Assembly (NCBI GenBank): GCA_003164815.1
Contig: PLUF01000102.1
Location: forward strand, 1 to 64,000
Reading direction: 5' to 3'
DNA from: Candidatus Gagatemarchaeum stordalenia
GTDB lineage: Archaea; Thermoproteota; Nitrososphaeria; Nitrososphaerales; Gagatemarchaeaceae
Length of the DNA: 64,000 nt
Shown: positions 3,122 through 6,585 of the stretch, piece after piece
How positions within the stretch are numbered: position 1 is the stretch's first letter
How the letters are laid out: each line of letters opens with the position of its first letter
Notes under the pieces: model-generated
Told to the model about the DNA's origin: nothing
The model's input: the letters and a program-made list of their open reading frames with translations, nothing else
The model's database searches: none
Translations under genes and position numbers: made by a program

Positions 3122-4279
3122 ATGCCTCACTCCATTCAAGATCTTGCCTCGGGTTTGGCGAAAGAAACAAGCATCAGAGAGCATCGATTCCTGCCTGGAT
3201 GGGTCGTTCAACTGTCAAAGCGCTACAATGAGCGGCCTGAAAACCCAACGGTCCACCTGTGCGACCTAACCGAGAACTCAATCGTCTATCTGCGGTCGGA
3301 GGGCCGCTCCGTCGTCGAACCCTGTTGGGAGCGGCTGGGTGTCTTGAAGGGGAAGCGATGGGCGTGGTACAACTATCGTGGAATAGCCAACTACCTTACA
3401 GGGGCGTCTGGAAAGGTTGCCAGGCTGAAGAAGTGGAAGGACTTCGCGAAACTGACCGGTTTCGACGTGAACATGCTCGAGCCCTTCGTCTCGTCCCTTA
3501 GGACCTCCGATGGACCCTACATCCGAACTCTGCGTAATCCCAAACTTCCATTGAACCTCGCAACGCCTGCAGGTGCCCGTCTCATCGGGTACTACGGCGA
3601 CTCGAACAACCGTAATGGCGCTTTCACTAACAAGGATTCGGCTTTGCACGAAGATTTTCGCAAAACCGTCACGAAAGTATTCGGTGACCTAACAATGTCA
3701 GAGACCGTTTCGAACAGGGGAGGCTTCAAGGATGGTAGGTACATTAGAAGCAATGTGGGCAAAATCGTACCCGCTGCTCTTACAGTAGCCGGATTCGACA
3801 ACACTCGGGACCAGAAGCAGGCAAACAATCCGCTGCCTTCATGGATATTCGATTGCAACCATCTCATCAGGTCGGAATGCCTTTCTGCCCTATGGGATGC
3901 CGAGGGGTCAGTCAATTATCGGGACCTCAAGATAGGTCAAGCGATACCGGTTGTTCTCTATCCGGAGGAGACAATCCCGGTCTGGCCGTCTAACAAAGCC
4001 TTTCGACGCATCAGTCTGGACGACCAGTCATGCGTGCTTGAACACCCTCCACTCCTGCTGATCTCAGCAGCCCTGTTGCTCTATTCCCTTGGAATTGTGA
4101 GCAGAATCATGCCCACAAAGCTCTCCAGCAGTCAAGGTGAGATTACTGCTTATTGGCAGCTGCGGGTACAAAGGGACCAAAGTATCAAGGCCTTCCACTC
4201 GCAGATCAGACTTCGTTCGGAGCATAAGCAGAAGGCACTCGACTCCATGGCAGGGGTTTCCTCGCATCTCCCACTGTAG
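3122..4279 (+). CDS. Free-standing LAGLIDADG homing endonuclease
   Basis: The 385-aa protein has two LAGLIDADG-type helices: ARLIGYYGDSN at 152-162 (acidic Asp160) and CLSALWDAEGS at 253-263 (Asp259, Glu261). After the second comes the usual pattern of a Leu-rich helix, a LGIVSRI strand and a YWQLRV strand. The first 140 residues are not typical and may bind DNA. The gene is not inside an intein or open intron. It sits between a decayed EF-2 5' end and the intact EF-2, 93 nt upstream of the latter. That position suggests it spread by cutting EF-2 at the P-loop coding region, as inferred in the findings. Its GC content is lower than that of the surrounding core genes. Confidence 0.8.
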   Translation: MPHSIQDLASGLAKETSIREHRFLPGWVVQLSKRYNERPENPTVHLCDLTENSIVYLRSEGRSVVEPCWERLGVLKGKRWAWYNYRGIANYLTGASGKVARLKKWKDFAKLTGFDVNMLEPFVSSLRTSDGPYIRTLRNPKLPLNLATPAGARLIGYYGDSNNRNGAFTNKDSALHEDFRKTVTKVFGDLTMSETVSNRGGFKDGRYIRSNVGKIVPAALTVAGFDNTRDQKQANNPLPSWIFDCNHLIRSECLSALWDAEGSVNYRDLKIGQAIPVVLYPEETIPVWPSNKAFRRISLDDQSCVLEHPPLLLISAALLLYSLGIVSRIMPTKLSSSQGEITAYWQLRVQRDQSIKAFHSQIRLRSEHKQKALDSMAGVSSHLPL

Positions 4280-4372: not shown

Positions 4373-6585
4373 ATGCCGAAGTTCAAGTCGACGACAGAGG
4401 CCCTCAAGATAGTTCACGATAGGGCACACATACGCAACATTGGGATCATCGCGCACGTGGACCATGGGAAAGAGGACTAAACTCCTCCCCAAGAACGACC
4501 ACGTCGGATAGTCTCCTAGCAGCGTGTGGGATGTTGAGCCCCAGCGTAGCTGGTCAAGCGTTAGCCCTCGATTACATGGAGCTGGAGCAGTCGAGGCAGA
4601 TGACGATCAAGGCCGCAAACGTTACACTCTATTATGAAGATGAAGGCCAGCCGTACGTAATCAACCTCATCGACACGCCGGGCCACATCGACTTCACCGG
4701 GAAGGTCACAAGGTCGCTTAGGGCTGTTGATGGAGCCATTGTTGTCGTAGACGCCGTTGAGTCGGTCATGACTCAGACCGAAACAGTCACCAGGCAAGCA
4801 CTTGAAGAGCGCGTCCGCCCGATCCTCTACATCAACAAGATTGACCGCCTCATAAAGGAACTTCGCCTGTCGCCGGAAGCGATGCAGAAGTGGCTCTTCA
4901 ACATAGTCAACGACTTCAACCGCCTCATCGACACCTATGCCGAGAAGGAGTACAAGGAGAAGTGGAAGGTGACGGTCCAGAACTCCCAGGTTGCTTTCGG
5001 GTCAAGCAAGGACAAGTGGGGATTCAACGCCAGCATGCTGAAGAACGCAGGAATGAGCTTCAAGGACATCATCGACGCCTATAACAGTTCGACGCCGGAG
5101 GAGCTGGGCAAGAAGCTCCCGCTCCACGAGTCACTCCTCGGCATGGTCGTCAGGCACCACCCCCCGCCCGACGTCGCGCAGGCCTACCGCATCCCCAAAA
5201 TCTGGCAGGGAGACCTCACCAGCGACGTCGGCAAGTCGCTCCTTGCGTGCGACGAGAACGGCCCGATGGTCATGATGGTCACCAACGTCGTCGTCGACCC
5301 GGCCGCGGGCCTCGTGGGCGTCGGCAGGCTCTTCTCCGGCTCGGTCTCCAACGGCGACCCGGTCTACCTGCTCAACTCGAAGAAGGAAGGCAAGATCCAG
5401 TCGGTCCAGCTCTTCATGGGCTTCCAGCGAGAGATCGTCGACTCGCTCCCGGCGGGCAACATCCCGGCGCTGCTCGGGCTCGACATCCGCTCCGGCGAGA
5501 CCATATCGAACCTCAAGGACGTCATGCCGTTCGAGTCCATCCACTACGTCTCAGAGCCAGTCGTGACGACCGCGGTCGAGGCGAAGCACCCGAGGGACCT
5601 CCCGAAGCTCGTCGAGGCGATGCGCAAGCTCAACATCGAGGACCCCAACCTCATCATCACCATCAACCAGGAGTCCGGCGAGACGCTGATGGCCGGCATG
5701 GGCGTCCTCCACCTCGAGATAGCCACGACCATGCTCCAGCAGCAGGGGCTCGAGATCATCACCTCGCCGCCCATCATCAACTACAGGGAGACGGTCCGGC
5801 AGGCGTCCGGCCCTATCATGTCCCGGTCCCCGAACAGGCACAACAAGATCTTCATCAAGATCGAGCCTCTCGACCCGCACATCGTGGAGCTCATCCGCAA
5901 CGGCAGCCTCAACGAGATGACGGACAAGAAGGGCATCCAGAAGACCCTGAGGGACAACGGCTGGTCCTCGGACGAGGCGAAGTCCGTGGTCACCATCGAC
6001 CCCAAGGGCAACATGCTCACCGAGGAGACCAAGGGAGTCCAGTACCTCAGCGAGTCCATCGACTCCATCAAGGCGGGCTTCGAGGACATCATGCAGAACG
6101 GCCCCCTCGCGTACGAGATCTGCAGGGGAATCAAGGTCACCCTCACGCACTACGTCCCGCACGAGGACCCGGCCCACCGGACCTACGCGCAGCTGATGCC
6201 GGCGACGAGGAGGGCGATTCTCGGTGCGATGCTGACGGCGAACCCGACGCTCCTAGAGCCGATCCTGGGCATAGAGGTGAAGGGGCCCGGCGACCTCATC
6301 GGGGCGATAACGGGCGTCATCAGCTCCAAGAGGGGCAAGCTCATCAACGTCGAGCAGAGGGAGGTCGTGACCATCATCCAGGGCGAGATCCCGGCGGCCG
6401 AGACCTTCGACCTCTCGCAGGTCATGAGGGGCGCGACCGCGGGCAAGGCCACCTGGAACACCAACTTCAAGCTCTGGCAGTCGGTCCCGACGAACATGCT
6501 CCTGCCGCTGGTCCTCGAGACGAGGAAGAGGAAGGGCCTCTCCCCGGAGCCGCCGACGCCGGCAGAGTTCATCGACAAGGAGTAG
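4373..6585 (+). CDS. fusA: Translation elongation factor EF-2, split by a 23-nt intron
   Basis: EF-2 is the ribosomal translocase GTPase. Exon 1 (4373-4470) encodes the N-terminus to HVDHGK; exon 2 (4494-6585) continues TTTSDSLLAACG. Joined, they give about 729 aa, the normal archaeal length, with an intact P-loop (HVDHGKTTTSD), DTPGH (G3) and NKIDR (G4). His594 in DPAHRTYAQ is the expected diphthamide site. Unspliced, exon 1 ends at a TAA (4478) five bases into the insertion. About 36% of codons in 4531-4800 end in A/T against about 3% in 5221-5490, so the 5' third looks foreign or recombinant. A weak TATA-like element (around 4330) lies before the ATG. Confidence 0.93.
4471..4493 (+). other. 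Putative 23-nt bulge-helix-bulge mRNA intron in EF-2
   Basis: The insertion breaks the P-loop codons and holds an in-frame stop. Its RNA folds as an archaeal splicing substrate. UGGG (4465-4468) pairs with CCCA (4488-4491) to make the 4-bp central helix. AAA (4469-4471) and AGA (4492-4494) are the two 3-nt bulges. GAGGA (4472-4476) pairs with UCCUC (4483-4487) around a 6-nt loop, and ACGUGG (4455-4460) pairs with CCACGU (4499-4504) outside, across a small internal loop. Cutting after the second base of each bulge removes exactly 4471-4493 and restores GKTTTSD. The exon-side helix is relaxed rather than canonical. Confidence 0.85.

Follow-up and report, generated by a model that had tools for sequence, protein, structure and literature searches.

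Predicted bulge-helix-bulge introns in the EF-2 genes of eleven archaeal families

The EF-2 gene of the archaeal genome studied here is interrupted by a 23-nt insert, and interrupted EF-2 genes recur in its relatives. By far the best explanation, which we consider very likely, is that the insert is a bulge-helix-bulge (BHB) intron removed by the tRNA splicing endonuclease, in which case the expression of EF-2 depends on splicing. This reading rests on observations that are shown, namely the interruption itself, its recurrence, the common geometry of the inserts, the covariation of their helices, coding flanks that are complementary specifically at the intron site, and genes for the enzymes.

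The interrupted EF-2 gene and the fold of its transcript

The window, that is, the whole stretch of 64,000 nucleotides that was analysed, sits on contig C28 of a draft genome of 2.84 Mb in 115 contigs. The EF-2 gene occupies positions 4373-6585 of the + strand, and its frame is broken within the Lys codon of the P-loop, the same codon at which relatives have introns. Without splicing the gene reads MPKF...HVDHGKED*, ending at codon 36 with the TAA stop at 4478-4480. The insert (4471-4493, + strand) interrupts the Lys-33 codon after its second base, and the removal of these 23 nt, which include the in-frame TAA, restores GKTTTSD exactly and gives a single EF-2 protein that runs through the P-loop HVDHGKTTTSDSLL to the stop at 6583-6585. 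The alternative cut register, 4472-4494, leads to an identical mRNA. Exon 1 (4373-4470, + strand) comprises codons 1-32 plus the first two bases of codon 33 (Lys); it aligns with residues 1-35 of the EF-2 query and agrees with congeners in 26-28 of 33 residues. Exon 2 (4494-6585, + strand) encodes the rest of the GTPase domain and domains II-V, with the Pfam domains GTP_EFTU, EFG_III, EFG_IV and EFG_C and a dN/dS of about 0.12. In the predicted spliced protein, for which there are no protein data, a tryptic peptide across NIGIIAHVDHGKTTTSDSL would span the junction. The frame break, its coordinates and the exact restoration of GKTTTSD had been claimed in an earlier note made without database searches, and all three held.

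The fold of the transcript contains the elements of a BHB motif, all on the + strand. In the central helix, the exonic strand UGGG (4465-4468) pairs with the intronic strand CCCA (4488-4491), an assignment supported by the fold and by covariation over 24 distinct cores. The 5' bulge AA^A (4469-4471) places the predicted 5' cut after 4470, and 35 of 39 introns have AA^N at this point; the 3' bulge AG^A (4492-4494) places the predicted 3' cut after 4493, and its third base is A in 34 of 39. The inner, intronic helix is formed by GAGGA (4472-4476) and UCCUC (4483-4487), with support from inner-helix covariation. The outer helix joins an exon-1 strand (4442-4460) to an exon-2 strand (4499-4515); its clearest part is the pairing of ACGUGG at 4455-4460 with CCACGU at 4499-4504, and more pairs extend out to 4442-4446. 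Both the central helix (UGGG/CCCA, 4 bp) and the inner helix (GAGGA/UCCUC, 5 bp) are present in the minimum-energy fold, as is the AAA bulge of 3 nt. In the same fold the G of the 3' bulge is paired with a C of exon 1 and is not free, and unpaired bases near the AGA bulge precede the 6-bp ACGUGG/CCACGU helix. The motif of the window is thus slightly relaxed, with an outer helix that is not perfect. The 4-bp helix between two 3-nt bulges, with cuts after the second bulge base, had been described before and held; the imperfection of the outer helix had gone unmentioned.

The statistical support available within the window is uneven. The fold has a z of -1.92, and an equally good fold was found in 9 of 200 shuffles. 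The central helix has four of four pairs, and a core as good at any frame-keeping register was obtained in 0 of 4000 draws when the intron was shuffled. A blind scan of both strands of the window returned 687 strong BHB motifs. Splicing at 15 of these would connect two open frames, and within that group the EF-2 motif ranks fourth by score. The motif is not unique, and therefore the relatives must decide: taken alone, structure within the window is only suggestive, and the comparative evidence is decisive. As for the 14 other frame-joining candidates, ten translations were inspected, none resembled a real interrupted gene, and no second intron is claimed.

EF-2 introns in related genomes and their shared geometry

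The search of related genomes for the same insertion, which the earlier note had proposed, was run and found introns of different sequence but one geometry in 39 genomes from 11 families of the same class, at three places in the EF-2 gene. The 37 distinct sequences range from 16 to 63 nt. Ten of the genomes belong to family f1, six to f2, four each to f4, f14 and f18, three to f12, two each to f3, f7 and f17, and one each to f5 and f11. In all 39 interrupted genes the insert brings an in-frame stop and its removal restores the EF-2 frame. The first site, used in 23 genomes, is the Asn codon of QIR^NFG, which precedes FGVIAHVDHGK; the second, used in 15, is the Lys codon of the P-loop. At both, the interruption follows either the first or the second base of the codon. 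The third, found in a single genome (G021), lies at the Val/Asp boundary before DHGK, after base 1 of the Asp codon. The shortest intron, AGGTTTAACCCGAATA of genome G088 (locus L082), has 16 nt, with a 3-bp inner helix and a 3-nt loop. The insert of the window had been placed among the shortest mRNA introns, yet this shorter EF-2 intron exists, and it is perhaps itself among the shortest, its splicing being inferred.

Of the 46 genomes in the window's family, 36 gave a match: EF-2 was interrupted in 10, the P-loop was uninterrupted in 25, and one match was weak and paralog-like. The search of the order covered 400 genomes with 349 matched; only the best rows were listed and chosen family members were inspected in two sets of 30 genomes, so that some matching genomes remained unread. 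The search of the class (130 genomes, 128 matched) added more introns. Every inspected genome's own EF-2 was interrupted in f2 (6), f3 (2), f4 (4), f12 (3), f17 (2) and f18 (4), while f14, f19 and f20 were mixed. No interruption was seen among the inspected or listed members of f8, f9, f10, f13, f15, f16, f21, f22 and f24, with G286 of f10 unresolved. The counts exclude G286, whose gene is in two pieces, and G095 of f2, both unread. Most of the genomes compared are drafts; one intron-bearing genome, G046 (f2), is a single contig, and its intron has 37 nt. Three further candidates were set aside. The apparent 18-nt insertion of G433 is a run of N, the match in G082 (L097) resembles the EF-2 of another archaeon, and in G117 (L098) the start of a Lys-site intron is present but the beginning of exon 2 is missing, which probably reflects a deletion or a misassembly.

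The inserts share one geometry. All 39 introns have a frame-restoring register in which a central helix is flanked by a 3-nt bulge on either strand, with cuts after the second bulge base. The 4-bp central helix is complete in 34 of them, has three of four pairs in G005, G058 and G071, and two of four in G106 and G114. Its sequence varies widely and includes UGGG/CCCA, CGGG/CCCG, ACGG/CCGU, AUGG/CCAU, ACGU/GCGU, UUCG/CGAA and CAGG/CCUG. When the introns were shuffled, with slides that keep the mRNA allowed, the observed core was reached at a frame-keeping register with a frequency of at most 0.001 for 31 of 37 introns, the highest value being 0.0195. The register used was the best of the one to six that restore the motif, which inflates the pairing slightly. 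In the 24 distinct cores of 20 nt, the fraction of cells that pair is 95.2%, compared with 51.2% after shuffling and at most 45.8% after sliding; the covariation score is 1.05 against 0.20 in shuffles, and cells that change on both sides number 71 against 21.2. Two of the five covariation measures, the pairs with both-side change and the further pair types, were unremarkable, since 72 and 54 of 500 shuffles, respectively, were as high. For 24 of 37 introns the minimum-energy fold of the region shows every central pair that can form; in the other 13 an alternative pairing wins.

The coding flanks carry a corresponding signal. The analysis used 95 loci, obtained from 132 by leaving out 12 (inteins, distant or broken copies) and merging 25 duplicates; the separate site of G021 was excluded. 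Complementarity between the flanks of the Lys site had a mean z of -3.40 in the 13 genomes with a Lys-site intron, compared with -0.60 in the 58 intronless genomes and -0.35 in the 23 with an Asn-site intron. At the Asn site the mean z was -2.99 in the genomes with an Asn-site intron, -0.25 in the intronless ones and -0.12 in those with a Lys-site intron. The Mann-Whitney p values were 2e-6 and 1e-9, and within the window's family, where 7 genomes were compared with 21, p was 3e-4; here, as in the other statistics, related genomes are treated as separate. The flanks in the window show no more than moderate complementarity (z -1.8). Exon flanks are therefore mutually complementary where the genome has its intron. 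This leaves two readings: either pairing of this kind is a precondition for an intron to settle, or the choice of synonymous codons serves to maintain the outer helix. The earlier proposal of a BHB intron cut by the tRNA splicing endonuclease is supported by the relatives, the covariation and the flank complementarity, with splicing itself inferred.

Splicing machinery and alternative explanations

Two members of the tRNA splicing endonuclease (EndA) family are encoded in the genome of the window. One subunit best matches the solved EndA structure 3p1z, which we take to be the Aeropyrum enzyme, and keeps Tyr, His and Lys; the other is without the His. Tyr, His and Lys form the catalytic triad of EndA. 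The combination of one catalytic and one His-less subunit suggests a hetero-oligomeric (alpha-beta)2 enzyme, whose assembly and specificity are inferred from sequence alone. Hetero-oligomeric EndA can also cut relaxed motifs, although one (alpha-beta)2 enzyme is constrained (PMC6379350). A gene for the RtcB ligase is present. With introns allowed, ARAGORN reported introns of 13-20 nt in seven tRNA genes, Arg(TCT, CCT), Thr(GGT), Tyr, Pro(CGG, TGG) and Ala(TGC), a count that omits a doubtful eighth gene at a contig edge; when no introns were allowed, it recovered a smaller number of them and gave a different reading for one. A strict BHB finder applied to ten long tRNA genes left their introns unresolved.

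In the proposed mechanism, the exon flanks of the EF-2 transcript would pair with each other as the outer helix, and four exon bases would pair with the 3' end of the intron as the central helix, which would leave two 3-nt bulges on opposite strands. The tRNA-splicing enzymes would then cut the intron out of the mRNA, and the P-loop frame would be restored. On an unspliced mRNA the ribosome would stop at codon 36, so that production of EF-2, and hence protein synthesis, would depend on splicing. The cutting and joining, the enzymes involved and the dependence of growth on them are inferred, without RNA or protein data. The earlier claim that EF-2 expression depends on mRNA splicing is likewise supported only as an inference.

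Several other explanations may be considered. The one that survives best is a refinement and not an exclusive rival: the BHB intron could be retained for regulation, with splicing efficiency, set by temperature or growth state, determining the level of EF-2. The long exon-exon stems and the families f2, f3, f4, f12, f17 and f18, with no uninterrupted EF-2 among those inspected, speak for it. On the other side, the intron is absent from 25 of the 35 members of the window's family with a readable P-loop, and site and sequence are free to vary, a pattern that a tolerated or mobile insert explains at least equally well; there are no expression data. We regard a regulatory role as unlikely.

Translational bypassing or frameshifting, in which the ribosome would hop over the 23 nt of an uncut RNA, is less plausible still. 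Phage T4 gene 60 is a precedent for bypassing, and the insert has features that recall it, being short, non-coding, placed within an essential frame and provided with a hairpin and an in-frame stop. Known bypassing, however, uses matching take-off and landing codons, and in the window the frame resumes after an AGA codon instead of AAA. Moreover, the inserts occur at three places with differing flanking codons, and bypassing predicts neither covarying 4-bp helices between 3-nt bulges nor outer exon-exon helices. This explanation is very unlikely.

An error of sequencing or assembly, or decay of EF-2 into a pseudogene, is all but excluded. The source is a draft of 115 contigs, and the EF-2 of the relative G117 is broken, probably by deletion or misassembly, which lends an artefact some credit; against it, EF-2 introns are present in 39 genomes, the single-contig G046 among them. 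Against a pseudogene, EF-2 is complete and is a single-copy gene, as judged by domain III (PF14492, one match). It is under purifying selection, with dN/dS of 0.096/0.81, 0.093/0.87 and 0.135/0.81 against three congeners (a fourth, G001, was left out because Ns prevented the computation), and it clusters with two congeners in the EF-2 tree. The cbf5 frame is unbroken in 55 of 61 relatives, the 55 with a match over the cut-off, and therefore the EF-2 breaks do not reflect general gene decay. Group I, group II and spliceosomal introns are rejected for an insert of 23 nt that starts with AG, ends with AG and is far too short for a ribozyme, as is an intein for so short an insert with an in-frame stop. 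A BHB intron thus remains the preferred reading.

Evolution, mobile neighbours and significance

EF-2 introns have been gained, lost or moved several times at the three places. On an EF-2 tree built by a quick method, the four states need 14 changes, with 8 for the Lys-site and 5 for the Asn-site introns. The tree holds 64 of 80 rows; the other 16 were too short, among them three f2 rows and every row from f18 or with an intein. The Asn-site intron is also found in f18, outside the order, and may therefore be old, with losses. Among close f2 relatives the introns range from 37 to 63 nt with a nearly unchanged stem and conserved cut sites. TTAG and TTAA tandem repeats occur in f2 intron loops (L085, L141).

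The same region of EF-2 also receives inteins. In six genomes of f6, f19 and f20, inteins of 526-613 aa lie between the K and T of the P-loop (loci L142, L133, L134, L135, L136 and L137 of G050, G418, G402, G414, G415 and G425, respectively), at a distance of 1-2 bases from the Lys-site introns. The one intein scanned has Pfam intein and LAGLIDADG domains, and no EF-2 gene among those read has both an intein and an intron. A 521-aa intein between the same K and T occurs in a Woesearchaeota contig (L057). One literature search returned no title on EF-2 inteins.

An open reading frame at 3122-4279 (+ strand), 93 bases upstream of EF-2, encodes a LAGLIDADG-like protein. Its PF14528 match is below the curated cut-off, while that of its homolog in G032 is above it, and its profile matches the endonuclease part of the EF-2 inteins with an hhalign probability of 95.9% (E 5e-9). 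A PDB profile search gave no match at E up to 1; it is the only control against other LAGLIDADG families, and specific descent from the EF-2 inteins is not claimed. Homologs were found in 7 of the 46 family genomes, one of them merely a fragment. The full-length homologs lie upstream of EF-2 on the same strand in six of six genomes; the adjoining EF-2 has an intron in five of these and lacks one in the sixth. Counted over the family genomes whose P-loop could be read, a full-length homolog is thus present in 5 of 10 with an intron and in 1 of 25 without; G028, G036 and G038 have one common intron and are not independent for this association. The G005 copy has a TAG where its match ends, apparently its ordinary stop. 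The product of 3122-4279 could be a stand-alone homing endonuclease, its target in EF-2 being inferred, and it would then stand outside the splicing mechanism. Farther upstream lie a Schlafen group-3 helicase-like gene (894-2771) and a MazG-like gene (529-897); with EF-2 beside them, these may form a mobile or defence cluster. The widespread set of introns with several gains, losses or shifts, the GK^T inteins and the LAGLIDADG-like gene adjoining EF-2 go beyond the earlier note.

A bolder reading of these observations is possible, though less likely than not: the P-loop region of EF-2 would long have been contested by intervening elements. Stand-alone LAGLIDADG genes beside EF-2 and GK^T inteins would attack the uninterrupted P-loop site, tiny BHB introns in the Lys codon or shifted re-insertions would block the attack, and splicing would keep EF-2 alive. 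The introns would be gained by DNA insertion coupled to homing, after which synonymous codons would be tuned to hold the helix. They might be ancestral in the class and have been overlooked because f8 and f10, families with many genomes, are uninterrupted.

Whichever way they arose, the kind of intron is known from cbf5, the only confirmed example in an archaeal coding sequence (PMC7714728; PMC2738675); the earlier note had correctly named cbf5 as the established case. The cbf5 pre-mRNA intron of Sulfolobales and Desulfurococcales was described by Watanabe 2002, cited in Yokobori 2009 (PMC2738675), and unconfirmed introns, including 12-bp ones in a rudivirus, have been predicted in other genes (PMC2738675). 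In both cbf5 and EF-2 a small BHB intron interrupts a protein gene, with predicted cuts between the second and third bulge residues, and splits an important codon, that of the catalytic Asp in cbf5 (PMC2738675) and that of the P-loop Lys in the EF-2 of the window. The cbf5 intron, too, has been lost in some lineages, and its motif is often unconventional and thought to need a hetero-oligomeric endonuclease. The EF-2 introns differ in gene and class, in their three sites, in the excess complementarity of the coding flanks and in size, reaching down to 16 nt, while 33, 36 and 39 are quoted for cbf5 (PMC2738675); moreover, cbf5 splicing was shown by cDNA, whereas that of EF-2 is inferred. The introns of archaeal pre-tRNAs cut by EndA share motif and enzymes, but the substrate here is an mRNA. 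At the BHB site of Haloferax HVO_1309, EndA likewise acts on an mRNA, yet in the 5' UTR and not in coding sequence (PMC7714728). Inteins in nucleotide-binding motifs occupy the same region of EF-2 (GK^T) but are removed at the protein level. EF-2 has been reported as an integration target of casposons, without mention of an intron (PMC6563490). The earlier statement that no EF-2 intron was known to have been described agrees with the open-licence literature, in which none was found; subscription papers were outside the scope. Very likely, then, the intron is of the cbf5 kind in a new host gene, a new class and several sites, with splicing inferred.

Until now, confirmed cases of mRNA splicing in archaea came from a single gene, cbf5, in two orders (PMC7714728, PMC2738675). 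EF-2, as a second and essential gene interrupted at three places in 11 families, would make such splicing a general phenomenon. The 37 natural variants offer material for the study of how introns arise, disappear and slide, of how small an intron can be (16 nt) and of endonuclease specificity. Gene finders will miss or truncate EF-2 in such lineages, and the production of EF-2 in the lineages that carry the intron should depend on the tRNA-splicing enzymes.
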